64,000 nucleotides of DNA, taken from contig BPKI01000001.1 in NCBI GenBank assembly GCA_026005055.1, positions 1,668,566 to 1,732,565 on the forward strand, given 5' to 3'. The position numbers and the translations under genes are program-made. Below the pieces are notes generated by a model. It was not told the origin of the DNA, did not search any database, and saw only the letters and a program-made list of their open reading frames with translations. Shown piece after piece: positions 55,183 to 64,000 of this stretch; position 1 is the stretch's first letter; each line of letters begins with the position of its first letter. The DNA comes from Lysobacterales bacterium. GTDB lineage: Bacteria > Pseudomonadota > Gammaproteobacteria > Xanthomonadales > BPKI01.

Positions 55183-55401
55183 CTATTTCAGCCGGTAGGT
55201 GATGCGGCCTTTGCTCAAGTCGTAGGGGGTGAGCTCCACCTTGACCCGGTCGCCGGTGAGAATTCGGATGTAGTTCTTGCGCATGCGGCCCGAGATGTGG
55301 GCCGTAAGGACGTGCCCGTTGTCAAGTTTGACTCGGAACATGGTATTGGGCAGCGCCTCGATGACGGTGCCTTCCATCTCGATGGCGTCGTCTTTGGGCA
55401 T
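55183..55401 (-). CDS. infA: Translation initiation factor IF-1, 72 aa
   Basis: Small OB-fold protein that binds the ribosomal A site during initiation. It matches the family along its whole length ([60 protein letters not shown]). ATG 55401 gives 72 residues. It is divergent from the decahaem cytochrome operon across 141 bases. Confidence 0.98.
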
Positions 55402-55542: not shown

Positions 55543-56424
55543 ATGGCGATCCGGCGATGCGCCTTTTCCTTGGCGCTCATGCTCCTCATCCCGGATGGTG
55601 CTCCGGGCGTCGAGGAACCCTGCCTGCTGTGCCATCGCGCCGAGGAGCCCGCGCAGCAAGCGCTTCTCGCAAGCCCTCACGGTAGCCTCGCTCACCCGCG
55701 CAGCCCGATGGCGGTGGGCGGTTGCGGGGGCTGTCATGGCGAGAGCCTGGCCCACCTGCGTCGGCCGACGGAATCGCCCGATCTTGCGTTCTCGGCAACG
55801 GAAGCGCTCGCTCGCCGCAACGAGCGCTGCCTCGAATGCCACCGCGACGCGGCCCTGCACTGGCCGGCTTCGGCCCACGCACGCGCCGAGCTCGCTTGCC
55901 ACGACTGCCATAGCGCCCACGAACCGAGCTTTCCCCGGCCGAGCGCCGATATCCGGGTCGAGGCTTGTCTTGGTTGCCATGTGGAGCTTCGCGGCGCGCT
56001 CGCGCGTCCCTTCAACCATCCTCTGGGTACCGGCGATTTCGACTGCAGCGCCTGTCACGATCCGCATGGCGCATTCGAGCGCGCGGCGCTACGCGAAGTC
56101 GGACGCAACGAGACCTGTTACCGCTGTCACGCCGATCTCCGCGGGCCTTTCCTCTGGGAGCACCGCCCGGTGCGCGAGAACTGTGGCGATTGCCATGCCG
56201 CCCATGGCTCCATCCACCCAGGAATGCTCACGGCGCGAGCGCCGTTCCTCTGCCAGTTTTGCCACCTGGCCCAGTTCCATCCGAGCACGCTTTACTCGGG
56301 CACGGGGCTGCCCGGGGAGAGCCGCCCCTCCGGGTCCGCCTTCCTGCTCGGCCAGAACTGCATGAATTGCCATCCGGCGGTGCATGGCAGCAATCACCCT
56401 TCCGGCGCGAGGCTGACGCGATGA
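55543..56424 (+). CDS. mtrA: Periplasmic decahaem c-type cytochrome, MtrA/DmsE/PioA type, 293 aa
   Basis: Carries electrons through an outer-membrane porin. After a signal peptide (residues 1-23) there are exactly ten CxxCH haem sites (CLLCH, CGGCH, CLECH, CHDCH, CLGCH, CSACH, CYRCH, CGDCH, CQFCH, CMNCH). The C-terminal [20 protein letters not shown] is the family ending. GGAGG lies five bases before ATG 55543. The next gene, overlapping by ATGA, is the matching barrel. An FNR-type site upstream suggests anaerobic control. Direction of electron flow (iron reduction, iron oxidation or another external partner) cannot be read from sequence. Confidence 0.92.
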
Positions 56425-58589
56425 GACACCGTTGGCTGCTCCTCCTGCTCGTCGTTCCCGGATGGGCCTGGGCCTTCGAGCGCGGTTTTTGGCTCGCCGG
56501 CTTGGCATGGCTCGAGCGGCCTTCGGAATGGTCCGCCCGCCGTTGGGGACTGAAGGAGCAGGGCGGTTACGGGGTACTTCGTCTCGAGGTGGCCTCGCAG
56601 GATCCCTGGCGAGAGCCGGTCCGCAACCGGATCGAGGCCGAGATTCGAGACCTCGGGCTGCCAGTGGCGGGCGCCTCGCTTCGCTTGGGCCGAGACGGGC
56701 AGGGCGAGGTGCTCTTCCGCTGGGAGCGCCGGGCGAGCGCCGAGGGCAGGGCAGCGACGCCTTTTCAGGGTGTCGGCGGCAACGCGCTTCGGCTTCCTCC
56801 TGACTGGCAGGCAGGTCCGAGCACCGCTGCCTTCCGCCTCGAGAGGGTGCCCCTCGAGCGCTTCGAATACGGCAAGCAGAGGGACCGCCATGGCGTGGCT
56901 TGGCGCTGGCTGCCGACGGCCGACACCCGCCTGGAACTCATGGCGGAACGGGAAAGGCGGCAGGGACTGAAGCCCTTCGGCGCCATGGTCGGCACCACCG
57001 GCGGCAACGCCCGTGCGGCGATTGTGCCCATGCCGATCGACGAGACCACCCAGGACATGCGCCTTGCTCTGAGCCGAGGCGGCAGCGAGCAGGCCTGGCG
57101 CATGGAGACGAAGCTTTCGCAATACCGCGATCGGGTCAATACCCTGATCTGGCAGCACCCTTTCGCGAATGTGCCCGGCCTGCCCGCGGAGGCGGGCTGG
57201 CCGCGGGCGATCGGACAGGCCGCGGCCCCGCCCAGCAATCGCGCCCTGATGCTTTCGGCTTCCGGTTGGCGCCGGCTGAGACCCACGCTCGCCGTGCACG
57301 GCGAGCTCATGCTCGGGCGACATTGGCAGGATCGCCCGTTCTTGCCTTACACCGCGCATCCCGACTGGCTGGCCAGGCCGCTCGTCCCGCCGCCGCGCAG
57401 GTCGCTCGATGGCGAGATTCGCCTCGAGCGCGCGGCGGGGCGCGTGGAATGGCGGCTTTCGGAATCGACGGAGCTTGCCGTCCTCGCTCGCCACGAGCGG
57501 CGCGAGGATCGAAGCCCGATCGCCCTGTTCCGACAGGTGCCGAGCGATGCCGCGCCGCAGGCAGCCGCGCCCGATGCGCGCTGGCGCTTCCGCCTCCCGC
57601 TCGACTGGCGGGAGTGCGCCCTCGAAAGCGGCCTCACCTGGCGTTTCGCCCACAGCGGGCGCCTCGGGCTGCGGCTTGGCCTTGAAGAGACCGCGCGTCG
57701 TTTCGCCGAACGGGATCGCACGCGCGATCGCTTTCTCGCGGCTGAGGCGATGGCGAAGGGACCCTTCGACACGCGGCTTTCCCTGCAGGCCGAATACCGC
57801 GAGCGGAGGGGCGATGCCTACATCGGCGAGCGTCCCTTCCTCGCGGCCTTTTTGCCGGAGTACGTGGCCACCGTGCCGGGGGGCTTCGAGAACGCGCCGT
57901 TGCTGCGCCGTCCTCATTTGGCCGACCGCGATCGCCTGGTGCTCGCCGGGCAACTGTTCCGGGCGCTCGGTGAGCGCACCGAGCTCGTGCTGCGCTGGAA
58001 TCACCTCGAGGATTCCTTCGATCGCTCGGTTCTGGGGCTTCTCGCCGCGCGCCGGCATGCGCTCGCCCTGGAGCTGGTGCGCCCTCTGGGACCAGAGGGG
58101 AGCCTCTCGGCATTCCTGGTCGGGGAGCGGGCGGAGAGCGTGCAGGCGGGCCATAGCTTCCGCGGCGGCGCCAACCGGCTTCCCGACCTTGCCGATCCCG
58201 GCCGCCGCTGGCGGGTGGAACAGGAAGACGAGATCGACGGCTTGGGTATCGCTGCGCGTCGCGGAACGGGGCTGAGGACACTCGAACTTTCGCTCGCGGC
58301 TTTGCGTTACCGCACGCGTTTCGGGATCGAGGCCGGGTCGGCGCTGAGCGCGGCGCCTTTGCCGAGCCTCTCCGGCCGCATGCTGCTTGGCAGTCTGCGT
58401 GCGATGCAGCCGCTGCGCGAGGGGGTGGCGCTCGTGGGCGAATGGCGGGGCGAACGGCTGTGGTTTCGCGATCCCTTGGCCCGTGGGCTCGCGGCGGATC
58501 AGCTCGCCGGCGTGCTGCTTGCGACCCCTGAGGATCGGCCGGGGCCGGCGCATGTGTTCCTGATCGCTCTGCGCGTGGATTTGCCGTGA
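56421..58589 (+). CDS. mtrB: Outer-membrane beta-barrel, MtrB/PioB family, 722 aa
   Basis: Barrel that sheathes the decahaem cytochrome and lets it span the outer membrane. A signal peptide (LLLLLVVPGWAWA) is followed by family markers: RWGLKEQGGYGVLRLEV, IRDLGLPVAGASLRLGRDGQGEVLFRWE, ATPFQGVGGNALRLPPDW and PMPIDETTQDMRLAL. Alternating beta-strand patterns run to the C-terminus, which ends in LRVDLP rather than a terminal aromatic. The N-terminal CxxC of Shewanella MtrB is not present. It is coupled to the cytochrome gene by ATGA and to the next gene by GTGA. Confidence 0.87.
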   Translation: MRHRWLLLLLVVPGWAWAFERGFWLAGLAWLERPSEWSARRWGLKEQGGYGVLRLEVASQDPWREPVRNRIEAEIRDLGLPVAGASLRLGRDGQGEVLFRWERRASAEGRAATPFQGVGGNALRLPPDWQAGPSTAAFRLERVPLERFEYGKQRDRHGVAWRWLPTADTRLELMAERERRQGLKPFGAMVGTTGGNARAAIVPMPIDETTQDMRLALSRGGSEQAWRMETKLSQYRDRVNTLIWQHPFANVPGLPAEAGWPRAIGQAAAPPSNRALMLSASGWRRLRPTLAVHGELMLGRHWQDRPFLPYTAHPDWLARPLVPPPRRSLDGEIRLERAAGRVEWRLSESTELAVLARHERREDRSPIALFRQVPSDAAPQAAAPDARWRFRLPLDWRECALESGLTWRFAHSGRLGLRLGLEETARRFAERDRTRDRFLAAEAMAKGPFDTRLSLQAEYRERRGDAYIGERPFLAAFLPEYVATVPGGFENAPLLRRPHLADRDRLVLAGQLFRALGERTELVLRWNHLEDSFDRSVLGLLAARRHALALELVRPLGPEGSLSAFLVGERAESVQAGHSFRGGANRLPDLADPGRRWRVEQEDEIDGLGIAARRGTGLRTLELSLAALRYRTRFGIEAGSALSAAPLPSLSGRMLLGSLRAMQPLREGVALVGEWRGERLWFRDPLARGLAADQLAGVLLATPEDRPGPAHVFLIALRVDLP

Positions 58590-59896
58590 TCCGCGCTGCC
58601 CTCTGGTTGGCCCTCTATCTCGGGCTCGTACTGCTGCCGCCGGCCCTTCTGGTCCTGCTCGAGCCGCCGCGCTCAGGCGGCTTCGCCTGGGATTTCGCCA
58701 TGATCCTGGGTTACTCGGCGCTTGCGATGTTCGGGCTTCAGTTCGTGCTCACCGCCCGTTTCAAGCGCGCCACCGCGCCTTTCGGCATCGATCTGATCTA
58801 CGCGCTTCATCGTTGGCTGGCGATCGCGGCGCTTCTCTTCGTCATGGTGCACGTGATCCTCCTCGCTTGGCGTTACCCCGCTGCGTTGGGTAGCGCCGAT
58901 CCGCTGCGGGCGCCTTGGCACATGAGCGCGGGAAGGCTCGCGCTCATCCTCTTCGCGTTCATCGTCTTGAGTTCGCTTTTGCGCAAGCGATTGCGCTGGG
59001 CGTATGAAAGCTGGCGTTTTTGGCATGGACTCGCCGCCACCGCAGCGCTCTTGTTGGCCATCGTCCATGCCGAAGGGGCAGGGCATTTCCTCAATGCAGC
59101 GTGGAAGCAGTGGGCTTGGGGTGCGCTTGCCGCCTTCTGGATCTTTGCGATCATCCACGTTCGCTTGCTCAGGCCCTGGTGGGTCGCGCGACGACCGTGG
59201 CGGATCGCGAGCCGCGAGCGTTTGGCGGGTCGGATGTGGCGCTTGCGCCTGCGTCCAGTCGGGCATGAGGGTCTCAGGCGTTTCGAACCTGGGCAGTTCG
59301 CTTGGCTGAGCTTCGGTCAGCATCCGATCCGCCTGGCGGAGCACCCCTTTTCCATCGCCTCAGCGCCGGGATCGGAAGAGCTTGAGTTCGCGATCAAGGA
59401 ACTGGGGGATTTCACCTCGACGATCGGTGAGCTTTCGCCCGATACCCACGTCTATGTCGATGGTCCCTATGGGGCTTTCAGCCTCGACCGGGAGCCGCAA
59501 GCTCGAGGCTTCGTTTTCATCGCCGGCGGGGCAGGGATCGCGCCGATCCTCAGCATGATCCGGGCGATGGCTGCGCGGGGCGATCTGCGGCCTGCGGTTC
59601 TGTTCTACGGCAACCGAAACCTCCAACGCACGGCTTACCGCGCGGAGCTTGCAGCCCTTGCCGAGCAATGTCGGCTGAAGGTCGTTTTGCTGCTCCATGA
59701 ACCCGAGACCGACTGGGAGGGAGAACGGGGCTACATCAGCGAGGGGATCCTTCGTCGTCATCTGCCGGAAAAGCACGATGGTTGGCATGCTTTTCTCTGC
59801 GGTCCGAAGCCGATGCTCGCGCTCGCCGAGAAGAGCCTGCGCCGTCTCGGTTTTCCGTTGGCTGCGATCCACTCCGAAATCTTCGATCTGGCTTGA
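58586..59896 (+). CDS. Ferric-reductase-like transmembrane flavocytochrome b, 436 aa
   Basis: Moves electrons from cytosolic NAD(P)H through FAD and two haem b across the inner membrane. The membrane half (about residues 1-205) has His in LHRWLAIAALLFVMVHVIL and FWHGLAATAALLLAIVHAEG, four ligands on two helices, as in ferric-reductase/NOX domains. The cytosolic half has the FAD motif EHPFSIASAP, the NAD(P) motif GGAGIAPILSMI and CGPKPML, ending SEIFDLA. GTG 58586 overlaps the mtrB stop. Its position makes it the likely electron donor, or acceptor, for the periplasmic cytochromes of the operon. Confidence 0.88.
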   Translation: MIRAALWLALYLGLVLLPPALLVLLEPPRSGGFAWDFAMILGYSALAMFGLQFVLTARFKRATAPFGIDLIYALHRWLAIAALLFVMVHVILLAWRYPAALGSADPLRAPWHMSAGRLALILFAFIVLSSLLRKRLRWAYESWRFWHGLAATAALLLAIVHAEGAGHFLNAAWKQWAWGALAAFWIFAIIHVRLLRPWWVARRPWRIASRERLAGRMWRLRLRPVGHEGLRRFEPGQFAWLSFGQHPIRLAEHPFSIASAPGSEELEFAIKELGDFTSTIGELSPDTHVYVDGPYGAFSLDREPQARGFVFIAGGAGIAPILSMIRAMAARGDLRPAVLFYGNRNLQRTAYRAELAALAEQCRLKVVLLLHEPETDWEGERGYISEGILRRHLPEKHDGWHAFLCGPKPMLALAEKSLRRLGFPLAAIHSEIFDLA

Positions 59897-59909
59897 AGGA
59901 GGAGAGCGA

Positions 59910-60317
59910 ATGCGCGAACGTCTGGCTTTCTTGAGCGCGGTCATCACCTCGGTGCTGGTCCTGGCGATGAGCGGGCTGCTCGCCGTCAAGCTTCAGTCGG
60001 ATGCCCAGGCGGGTGCGAGCTCGGGCGCTCAAAACCTCGACCGGGAGGAGGAAGCGCGTTTTGCCCGGGGGCGGGCGCTTTTCTTCAGCGAGGGCTGTGC
60101 CGGCTGCCACAGTGTGGGCGGCGAGGGCAATCCGCGAGGTCCGCTCGATGGGGTCGCGGCCCGCCGCTCGCGGGAGCAGCTTCGCGACTTCGCGTTCGGC
60201 ACGGGCACCGCGGCCCAGGAGCTTCCGCGGCGCATCGCGGTCGCCAAATCGGTCTACGCGGAACTCAGCGACGCGGATCGGGAAGCAATCCTCGCGTTTC
60301 TCGAAAGCCTGCATTGA
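59910..60317 (+). CDS. Small membrane-anchored c-type cytochrome, 135 aa
   Basis: An N-terminal hydrophobic helix (FLSAVITSVLVLAMSGLLAV) anchors or exports a monohaem domain with one CAGCH site at about residue 63. AAGGAGG precedes ATG 59910, and the gene closes the four-gene operon. No Met occurs after the haem site: where class I cytochromes have the distal Met-Pro the sequence reads ELPRR. So the sixth ligand is missing or atypical. A role as shuttle between the flavocytochrome b and the decahaem cytochrome is inferred from position. Confidence 0.85.
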   Translation: MRERLAFLSAVITSVLVLAMSGLLAVKLQSDAQAGASSGAQNLDREEEARFARGRALFFSEGCAGCHSVGGEGNPRGPLDGVAARRSREQLRDFAFGTGTAAQELPRRIAVAKSVYAELSDADREAILAFLESLH

Positions 60318-61114: not shown

Positions 61115-61466
61115 GGGGGCGACCGGCTTCGACGGGGGTTGCGAAATCGCCCGATGCATGCCGAGGGGGCCGCTTTCCTCGCGAATCCAGCGGCGAAAAG
61201 TAGTTGCGAACGACGACAACTACGCTCTGGCCGCCTAATCCGGCCGGACCGAGACCGCACCGGCGCCCGTGACGGGCGGAATCTCGGTCATCTCCACGGG
61301 CTCGCCTGCCCGCCCCGCCCGCGGCGGCAGGTTAAATCCCAGGGCTGGCTCCGGATGAGGCTGGCGCGTCGGCCGAGTTCGGAGCGAGAGTCAAGGACGC
61401 GCTAAGCATGTAGAGTCGGGGATGGAGGACTTCCGGACGCGGGTTCGATTCCCGCCGCCTCCACCA
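61115..61466 (+). ncRNA. ssrA: Transfer-messenger RNA (tmRNA)
   Basis: Rescues stalled ribosomes and tags the unfinished protein. The 5' end GGGGGCGACCGGCTTCGACG pairs with CGCCTCC at the 3' end (seven pairs, one G-U), followed by ACCA. The T-arm GGGTTCGATTCCC is intact. The tag frame GCG...GCC at 61206-61235 encodes ANDDNYALAA and stops at TAA 61236-61238. An upstream promoter and a strong terminator bracket it. Confidence 0.97.
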
Positions 61467-61765: not shown

Positions 61766-63229
61766 GGCTCCATGTCGTTTCGTGTGGAAAGCAACACTGT
61801 CACTGGGGCATCGCCGGCGCGAACGGACTGGCCGGCAGGTGCTTGAGCTTGGACATGCGCAGGTAGGCGATGGCGATGAAGTTCTGGCTCGTCCTGAAGC
61901 CGCGCGCGGCGCGCTTGGCCTGCTGCAGCAGCCCGTTCATCGCCTCGACGAAGGCGTTGCTGCGGTGATCGACCATGCCGCGCACCACCGCGTCGAACCG
62001 CTCCTTGAGCGTGGCGGCCAGCTTCTTGAACGGCTCGAGCCGACAGCGCCGCGCCCAGCTCAGCCAGGCCCTGAGGTCGGATGCGGCCTGTTCGATGCTG
62101 TTGTGCGCTGTGGCCCGCGCGTACACCTCGCGCAGCGCCATCTTCAGCCGCCACGCCCGCGCGCTTTTGAGCGTCGAGCGCTGCAGCCAGTGCATCGCCT
62201 GGATCTGGCGGGCGCTCCAGCTGCTGGGGTTGCGCCGCATGCCCCACAGCAGCTGCCTGAGCGTCTTACGCTGGCCAGTGCCCAGCGCGGCTCGCACCGC
62301 CTGCGCGTCGGTGGCCATCTCCGCGCGGCGCACCTGGTCCATCGCCTCGATGGCCATCGAGACGACGTGGAAGCGGTCGTAGCTGATCTGCGCCTGGGGC
62401 AGCGCCAGCGCCACGCCCTTGGCGTAGGCCGCGCTCATGTCCATGCACACGTGCCGCACCTGGGCGGGATCGCCGCCATGGGCCCTCAGATCCTCGGCGA
62501 ACTCCACCACCGTGCGGTGCTCGCGCCCCTCGGTGGCGAACAGCAGCCGCTTGCGATCCAGGTCGTGCACGACGGTGATGTAGTGCTGCCCGCGCCGCAG
62601 GCTGGTCTCGTCGATGCCCACCGTGCGCACGCCGGCGAAGTCTTCCAGCGCACGCGCCTGCGCGACGTAGAACTCGATGCGCCGCCACAGCCGCTTGTCC
62701 TTGCAGCGCAGCAACTCGGCGGCCTGGCGCACCGGCAGGTCCAGGCACAAGGTCAGCGCCAGCGCTTCGAACGCCGCGGTGAAGCCCGAGCCCGGACGCG
62801 CCCAGGGCACGGCCACCTGCGTGGTCTTGCCGCAGGCACCGCAGGCCACGCGCGGCACGTCGCAATGCAGCCAGGCCTCGAACTGGAAGAAGTCCAGGTG
62901 CCGCCAGGATCGGCGCAGCCGGTCGTGCACCGGTTGCGTGGCCGCACCGCATGCCGGGCAGGCGAGCCTGCTGGTGTGGCAGCCGATCTCGAAGTCGATA
63001 CGCCGCTTGGCGGTGTCGAGCCTGACGTCATCGACGACCCACGGCGGCTGCAAGCCCAGCGCGCTGGTGAACAGAGCTTCTACGGCAATGCCCATGGACT
63101 CATCCTCCTGATCAAACACGCCTCGTGGACATGTGCACAGGCCGGCCAGCGGCCTGCACACATGCCCACCGGGCTCGACGACCAGGAGTCATTGTGACTG
63201 TTGGGTTCCACACGAAATGACGAAGAGCC
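61766..63229 (-). mobile_element. ISL3-family insertion sequence, copy 2, 1464 bp
   Basis: Same length and ends as copy 1 (GGCTCC... to ...GAAGAGCC). I found two base differences from copy 1, both changing the transposase (Thr to Ser and Lys to Arg). No target duplication can be checked, because the right end abuts copy 3 directly. Confidence 0.94.
61800..63095 (-). CDS. ISL3-family transposase, copy 2, 431 aa
   Basis: Identical to the transposase of copy 1 except for EDLRAHGG in place of EDLKAHGG and NPSSWS in place of NPSTWS. The ATG and AGGAGG ribosome binding site are conserved, so it is intact and probably functional. It can supply transposase for all three copies in the window. Confidence 0.95.
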   Translation of the reverse strand: MGIAVEALFTSALGLQPPWVVDDVRLDTAKRRIDFEIGCHTSRLACPACGAATQPVHDRLRRSWRHLDFFQFEAWLHCDVPRVACGACGKTTQVAVPWARPGSGFTAAFEALALTLCLDLPVRQAAELLRCKDKRLWRRIEFYVAQARALEDFAGVRTVGIDETSLRRGQHYITVVHDLDRKRLLFATEGREHRTVVEFAEDLRAHGGDPAQVRHVCMDMSAAYAKGVALALPQAQISYDRFHVVSMAIEAMDQVRRAEMATDAQAVRAALGTGQRKTLRQLLWGMRRNPSSWSARQIQAMHWLQRSTLKSARAWRLKMALREVYARATAHNSIEQAASDLRAWLSWARRCRLEPFKKLAATLKERFDAVVRGMVDHRSNAFVEAMNGLLQQAKRAARGFRTSQNFIAIAYLRMSKLKHLPASPFAPAMPQ

Positions 63230-64000
63230 TCCATGTCGTTTCGTGTGGAAAGCAACACTGTCACTGGGGCATCGCCGGCGCGAACGGACTGGCCGGCAGG
63301 TGCTTGAGCTTGGACATGCGCAGGTAGGCGATGGCGATGAAGTTCTGGCTCGTCCTGAAGCCGCGCGCGGCGCGCTTGGCCTGCTGCAGCAGCCCGTTCA
63401 TCGCCTCGACGAAGGCGTTGCTGCGGTGATCGACCATGCCGCGCACCACCGCGTCGAACCGCTCCTTGAGCGTGGCGGCCAGCTTCTTGAACGGCTCGAG
63501 CCGACAGCGCCGCGCCCAGCTCAGCCAGGCCCCGAGATCGGAAGCGGCCTGTTCGATGCTGTTGTGCGCTGTGGCCCGCGCGTACACCGCGCGCAGCGCC
63601 ATCTTCAGCCGCCACGCCCGCGCGCTCTTGAGCGTCGAGCGCTGCAGCCAGTGCATCGCCTGGAGCTGGCGGGCGCTCCAGGTGCTGGGGTTGCGCCGCA
63701 TGCCCCACAGCAGCTGCCTGAGCGTCTTACGCTGGCCAGTGCCCAGCGCGGCTCGCACCGCCTGCGCGTCGGTGGCCATCTCCGCGCGGCGCACCTGGTC
63801 CATCGCCTCGATGGCCATCGAGACGACGTGGAAGCGGTCGTAGCTGATCTGCGCCTGGGGCAGCGCCAGCGCCACGCCCTTGGCGTAGGCCGCGCTCATG
63901 TCCATGCACACGTGCCGCACCTGGGCGGGATCGCCGCCATGGGCCTTCAGATCCTCGGCGAACTCCACCACCGTGCGGTGCTCGCGCCCCTCGGTGGCGA
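63230..64000 (-). mobile_element. ISL3-family insertion sequence, copy 3, partial (runs off the window)
   Basis: Begins TCCATGTCGTTTCG immediately after the right end of copy 2, so three terminal bases (GGC) are absent or shared. Orientation is the same as copy 2, giving a head-to-tail tandem. Six differences from copies 1 and 2 are confined to a stretch of about 135 bases (63530-63670). Confidence 0.9.
63261..64000 (-). CDS. ISL3-family transposase, copy 3, C-terminal part (5' end outside window)
   Basis: The last 246 codons are visible and the frame is open to the window edge. Compared with the other copies it has MALRAVYARA for MALREVYARA, DLGAWLSW for DLRAWLSW and ARQLQAMHW for ARQIQAMHW. 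No stop or frameshift is seen in the visible part. Confidence 0.92.
   Translation of the reverse strand, partial: ATEGREHRTVVEFAEDLKAHGGDPAQVRHVCMDMSAAYAKGVALALPQAQISYDRFHVVSMAIEAMDQVRRAEMATDAQAVRAALGTGQRKTLRQLLWGMRRNPSTWSARQLQAMHWLQRSTLKSARAWRLKMALRAVYARATAHNSIEQAASDLGAWLSWARRCRLEPFKKLAATLKERFDAVVRGMVDHRSNAFVEAMNGLLQQAKRAARGFRTSQNFIAIAYLRMSKLKHLPASPFAPAMPQ

Follow-up and report, generated by a model that had tools for sequence, protein, structure and literature searches.

The 64,000-nucleotide stretch of Lysobacterales bacterium DNA analysed here (assembly GCA_026005055.1, contig BPKI01000001.1; to be referred to as the window) carries at positions 55543-60317, within a complete 2.44 Mb chromosome, a four-gene operon for electron transfer across the cell envelope. 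The operon joins a porin-cytochrome (MtrAB) conduit to a front end formed by an NAD(P)H flavocytochrome. A description of mtrAB combined with a NOX/FRE flavocytochrome was not found in the open-access papers searched. The operon probably functions as a self-contained trans-envelope conduit from NAD(P)H to the exterior, an outward, quinone-bypassing valve that is induced at low oxygen. The flavocytochrome protein will be referred to as FLV, and the tethered mono-haem cytochrome c protein as CYC. The genes are real and conserved. An earlier note on this DNA listed them with their coordinates and junctions and counted ten CxxCH motifs in a protein of 293 residues, all of which is exact, and its family assignments (decahaem cytochrome, MtrB-type barrel, ferric-reductase-like flavocytochrome and anchored cytochrome c) agree with the profile matches.

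The first two genes encode the parts of the conduit. MtrA is matched above cut-off by the profile for DmsE-type decahaem cytochromes (TIGR03508, E 1.4e-71) and is similar in sequence to MtrA of the solved MTR complex (6r2q_A, E 1.3e-63). The ten CxxCH motifs are invariant in the alignment of its homologs (n=11), as are most of the distal His residues. MtrB is matched above cut-off by PF11854 (MtrB_PioB, E 3.2e-59), and below cut-off by TIGR03509 (150 vs 240 bits). Its sequence match to 6r2q_B has an E value of 1.4e-7, and the same chain is the best fold match by far (E 1.1e-26). Both parts belong to the families of a porin-cytochrome conduit, and a physical complex with MtrA inside MtrB is predicted. 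The complete source genome gives zero matches to TIGR03507, the profile for OmcA/MtrC-family surface decahaem cytochromes; this and the other genome-wide statements on the source genome are results of family searches. MtrB ends in RVDLP (58560-58589, where the gene end overlaps the flv start), and most of its relatives have the usual aromatic residue at or close to the C-terminus.

The front end is formed by FLV. Profile search finds PF01794, PF08022 and PF00175, each above cut-off, in a layout of a six-helix bis-b-haem domain, a flavin adenine dinucleotide (FAD) domain and an NAD(P)-binding domain. His75/His89 and His147/His161 are invariant among the homologs (n=23), giving two HX13H haem-b pairs. 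The predicted model has a mean local confidence score (pLDDT) of 80.7, and its best fold match is SpNOX (8qt6), over the full length, with TM scores of 0.76/0.82. By its domains, HX13H pairs and fold, FLV is a member of the ferric reductase/NOX (FRD) superfamily. It is the sole match to the ferric-reductase domain (PF01794) in the complete source genome, where a second such protein is absent. Direct membership of FLV in MsrPQ was rejected, as FLV bears its own FAD and NAD domains.

CYC is matched above cut-off by PF00034 (E 2.1e-11). In the alignment of its homologs (n=15) a Met is never conserved and Lys113 is invariant, so that the His/Met ligation of class I cytochromes is not seen. Lys113 aligns with the Met of the RAMPQF motif in NorC (3o0r_C), which is the haem ligand in NorC. 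The haem of CYC is therefore predicted to be His/Lys-ligated, with a lowered potential. In one Marinosulfonomonas assembly (L104:7312-8946), CYC is fused behind FLV to a multi-haem c7/c3 domain, with 12 CxxCH motifs in total. This assembly is without MtrB, and in the sister genome (L112) CYC is unfused and mono-haem. The fusion, which may be an assembly artefact, is consistent with CYC being an electron donor to multi-haem cytochromes.

The four genes are closely packed. The mtrA/mtrB junction is an ATGA overlap and the mtrB/flv junction a GTGA overlap; cyc starts 13 bases 3' of flv, with a good Shine-Dalgarno sequence. Three of the four genes are translationally coupled, which counts in favour of a single wire.

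The arrangement extends to relatives. In what follows, class-A FLVs are those partnered by CYC, and class-B FLVs those partnered by a tethered cytochrome b5. Of the FLV homologs in 398 genomes of the order, the nearest six (51-52%) all adjoin mtrAB, in divergent pairs (cyc-flv and mtrA-mtrB) as compared to the four colinear genes of the window. Not counting the window, FLV-CYC is located beside mtrAB at about ten Xanthomonadales loci. FLV and MtrA lie within 10 kb of each other in 19 of the 37 genomes of the order that hold both, mostly within 700 bp, against about 0.2 expected and with several of the unlinked genomes being fragmented assemblies. A scan of named genomes gives 27 FLV loci with a CYC neighbour at all but three, and the complete quartet in Aquimonas, Luteimonas, Alkalisalibacterium and uncultured Xanthomonadales. 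The two points on which the earlier note had staked its proposal, the membership of the barrel in the MtrB/PioB family (by profile, PF11854, and by fold, 6r2q_B) and the conservation of the flavocytochrome next to mtrAB in relatives (by the order-wide and named-genome scans), both hold. A scan of viral contigs did not find relatives. An apparent FLV near mtrAB at another locus (L173) was discarded as a soluble reductase domain. A second, more distant FLV copy (39-40%) is located elsewhere in two quartet-bearing genomes (L083 and L084, genomes G013 and G023), and that at L084 shares a stretch with a tetrahaem open reading frame.

In Betaproteobacteria, Gemmatimonadota, Planctomycetota, Acidobacteriota, Alphaproteobacteria and others, FLV-CYC also occurs with no mtrAB next to it. 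MtrB is nonetheless present in all 14 Gamma- and Betaproteobacterial genomes with a class-A FLV, 10 of them unlinked, compared to 28 of 369 genomes (7.6%) of the class, and in one of two Desulfuromonadales genomes with FLV-CYC. The occurrence of the pair without MtrAB in other phyla, together with the co-occurrence of MtrB in Gamma- and Betaproteobacteria, indicates a portable module that is associated there with MtrAB: FLV-CYC is a portable module recruited to MtrAB. The FLV tree is clustered, so that the very small P values obtained by counting genomes exaggerate the independent evidence for this co-occurrence. Shared descent from one ancestral locus would nonetheless not be enough by itself to explain the unlinked co-occurrence in these two classes and the location of two separate FLV clades next to mtrAB.

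FLV appears to take the position of the usual inner-membrane donor. None of the 11 class-A FLV loci has a tetrahaem gene within 6.5 kb of mtrA (the window included, as read from its own neighbourhood), compared to 9 of the 22 FLV-free loci (P 0.015). The tetrahaem genes tested, four at non-FLV loci and one at a class-B locus (L080), are all NapC/CymA. The description of the flavocytochrome as standing in place of CymA, put forward in the earlier note, is borne out, as the complete source genome has zero matches to the NapC/NirT family (PF03264) and sister mtrAB loci without FLV often carry NapC/CymA.

The strongest indication that FLV, carrier and MtrAB act in series is that the arrangement recurs with a non-homologous carrier. 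Class-B FLVs (family f9, from the same order, about 30% identical) also adjoin mtrAB and are accompanied by a small, tethered cytochrome b5 (PF00173, E 1.5e-19) instead of CYC. The two classes form separate starred clades in the FLV tree, each with its own carrier. As the carriers are not homologous, it is the architecture of FLV, tethered single-haem carrier and MtrAB that is maintained. Class-B FLVs adjoin at least two MtrA lineages, and by the MtrA tree the two FLV types may have joined either the same or separate mtrAB lineages. Two class-B loci (L079 and L080) have as neighbours mtrCAB-like clusters that include a three- or four-haem gene. The chances are about even that NOX-type flavocytochromes have been coupled to MtrAB at least twice as a portable, quinone-independent valve, in one version with a tethered, possibly Lys-ligated cytochrome c (FNR-switched, at low oxygen) and in the other with a tethered, periplasmic cytochrome b5. 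Exported, tethered cytochrome b5-like proteins with a NOX-type flavocytochrome, often by mtrAB, are encoded at L077:7755-8117 (minus strand) and L090:7644-8003 (plus strand), with equivalents at L076, L078-L080, L086 and L129-L133. A periplasmic cytochrome b5 in this setting looks unusual.

The promoter region suggests when the operon would be used. The sequence TTGACCTGGATCAA upstream of mtrA is a perfect FNR-type box, and it is the sole match to TTGAYNNNNRTCAA in the 64 kb (0.07 expected). FNR-type sites with at most two mismatches are found in eight of nine class-A flv/mtrA intergenic regions (Poisson P 4e-8 compared to the rest of the same loci). The source genome encodes a protein (L142) with an N-terminal Cys motif and an ETVSR recognition helix, presumably FNR as judged from the known FNR motifs. 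As its promoter contains such a box and the genome encodes a Cys-cluster FNR, the operon is a predicted member of the FNR regulon.

In the mechanism proposed here, FLV in the inner membrane would oxidise cytosolic NAD(P)H on its FAD and hand single electrons, via its two b haems, to the periplasmic side of the membrane. CYC, being tethered, would take the electrons from FLV to MtrA, and the ten haems of MtrA, sheathed by MtrB, would conduct them through the outer membrane. As MtrC is absent, the exposed end of MtrA would itself reduce a soluble shuttle, a metal ion or a mineral. This path would skip the quinone pool. A NOX-type protein that moves electrons outward runs down the membrane potential, which makes energy-conserving respiration unlikely and redox balancing or metal reduction likelier. 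The valve may thus relieve the cell of surplus NAD(P)H by reducing an extracellular acceptor, for example Fe(III) or Mn(IV), with FNR switching it on as oxygen falls.

NOX/FRE enzymes work outward. To reach NAD(P)+ from the outside, electrons would have to move uphill both in redox potential and against the membrane potential. A search for RuBisCO in the source genome found none. Inward flow feeding NAD(P)+ reduction is for these reasons much less likely than outward flow, and FNR-type control fits a low-oxygen electron sink. A path from extracellular Fe(II) or another donor through MtrA, CYC and FLV to NAD(P)+ is accordingly highly improbable, even though MtrAB-type conduits are thought to be bidirectional and MtoAB and PioAB serve electron uptake (PMC10734462, PMC5566968).

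A different possibility is that the locus under FNR control houses two systems working independently of each other, FLV-CYC and MtrAB. In that case, FLV-CYC would reduce periplasmic acceptors or oxygen (as an NADPH oxidase), and MtrAB would be fed otherwise, for example by another periplasmic cytochrome. The autonomy of FLV-CYC in other phyla, where it is often unlinked to mtrAB, is in keeping with this, as are the other multi-haem cytochromes of the source genome and the nearest solved fold of FLV, SpNOX being a genuine NADPH oxidase. We consider such independence unlikely, however, in view of the overlapping genes, the recurrence of the arrangement with two carrier types that are not homologous, the co-occurrence of MtrB even when unlinked and a genome without NapC/CymA to feed MtrA. 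Moreover, the FNR-type box speaks against deliberate superoxide production.

Several observations nevertheless weigh against a continuous wire from FLV through CYC to MtrAB. MtrB is found in none of eight Gemmatimonadota, Planctomycetota, Acidobacteriota and Alphaproteobacteria genomes with FLV-CYC, and the pair can therefore do without MtrAB. Rehaibacterium and UBA5700 have a NapC/CymA gene at the mtrAB locus itself, with FLV-CYC at a different place. The enrichment of FNR boxes is not significant at class-B loci (P 0.11), and co-regulation by FNR could account for the clustering of the genes without direct electron transfer. The AlphaFold model of MtrB consists nearly entirely of beta strands and has an only moderate pLDDT of 70.6, and no terminal extracellular reductase was identified. 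The main uncertainty in the proposed conduit concerns the direct feeding of MtrA by FLV-CYC, and the acceptor.

The same outward wire could also have an assimilatory purpose rather than redox balancing: it would prepare iron for uptake by reducing Fe(III) that is extracellular or chelated, in the manner of classical ferric reductases. FLV belongs to the ferric reductase/NOX superfamily, and MsrQ-like PF01794 clusters with a VIT1 iron transporter have been proposed as assimilatory iron reductases (PMC8238504). In comparison, the box upstream of the operon is of the FNR type (a Fur box was not searched for), and an iron transporter gene was not recognised in or beside the operon, which makes an assimilatory role rather improbable.

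To our knowledge, the Mtr, Mto and Pio conduits with an established inner-membrane partner are connected by it either to the quinone pool or to a photosynthetic reaction centre, with which they exchange electrons. The operon shares with Shewanella MtrCAB and CymA a decahaem MtrA in an MtrB barrel, with an inner-membrane donor and a periplasmic carrier feeding MtrA. There are three differences, however: MtrC is absent from the locus and the genome, the donor is an NAD(P)H flavocytochrome rather than a quinol-oxidising tetrahaem protein, and a mono-haem cytochrome, tethered to the membrane, serves as carrier. MtoAB(D)-CymA/MtoC and PioABC also have a two-part MtrAB-type conduit without MtrC and a small mono-centre periplasmic carrier (MtoD, PioC), but their electrons move inward to quinone or a reaction centre, and a FAD/NAD flavocytochrome in the cluster is undescribed. 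SpNOX and the ferric reductase/NOX superfamily have the same fold as FLV and likewise combine a six-transmembrane bis-b-haem domain with FAD and NAD(P) domains in one protein. SpNOX donates to oxygen, whereas the partners of FLV are a tethered cytochrome c and a conduit in the outer membrane.

The closest concept is that of the MsrQ-like flavinylated systems, in which an inner-membrane protein with PF01794 and PF00175 passes NAD(P)H electrons to an extracytosolic carrier (PMC8238504). The carrier there is an ApbE-flavinylated flavin mononucleotide protein, and an Mtr conduit is unmentioned. In the porin-cytochrome clusters PCC3 and PCC4, the porin and its cytochrome are accompanied by an inner-membrane protein that has two HX13H motifs, but their porins and cytochromes are not homologous to MtrAB, and He et al. 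(2017) read the HX13H proteins as quinone-type cytochrome b (PMC5566968). The survey of mtrCAB neighbours by Baker et al. (2022) covers CymA, NetBCD, PdsA, MtoC and MtoD, and its main text is without the words ferric reductase, flavo-, NADH and FAD (PMC8805035).

If the proposed conduit is correct, it would be fed by NAD(P)H with a driving force near -320 mV, and extracellular electron transfer would be uncoupled from the quinone redox state and from proton pumping. Cultivable Lysobacteraceae (Aquimonas, Luteimonas, Alkalisalibacterium) would then offer an addressable redox valve, and bioelectrochemistry would gain a compact four-gene cassette to bring NAD(P)H electrons to an electrode. The parallel cytochrome c and cytochrome b5 carriers make the logic of the pathway directly testable by a carrier swap.

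Table 1. Genes and elements of the operon and its immediate flanks (positions in the window).
Feature	Position	Strand	Description
FNR/ANR-type operator TTGACCTGGATCAA	55477..55490	+	52 bp 5' of mtrA ATG, infA-mtrA intergenic region
mtrA-like decahaem c-type cytochrome	55543..56424	+	293 aa, N-terminal signal peptide, ten CxxCH
mtrB/pioB-like outer-membrane beta-barrel	56421..58589	+	722 aa, signal peptide ...AWA/FE
flv, NOX/FRE-type transmembrane flavocytochrome b	58586..59896	+	436 aa, GTG start
cyc, mono-haem class I-like cytochrome c	59910..60317	+	135 aa, CAGCH, N-terminal membrane anchor (transmembrane segment) at residues 8-26
infA	55183..55401	-	flanking gene, read from sequence
tmRNA	61115..61466		flanking gene

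Beyond infA, the minus strand carries leucine-catabolism-type genes. Directly downstream of the transfer-messenger RNA (tmRNA) gene are two nearly identical, adjoining transposase genes of the ISL3 family (61800-63161 and 63261-64000, minus strand).

Other multi-haem proteins are encoded elsewhere in the source genome. An octahaem cytochrome of 664 residues, with a weak match to cytochrome c552, is located at about 1.892 Mb (L127:4488-6482, minus strand). A cluster at 1.946-1.960 Mb (L128) encodes a fusion protein with FAD/NAD, cNMP-binding and 4Fe-4S parts, a decahaem cytochrome with an FHA domain, and a protein of more than 1000 residues with at least ten haems. This cluster is possibly another redox system of the source genome.

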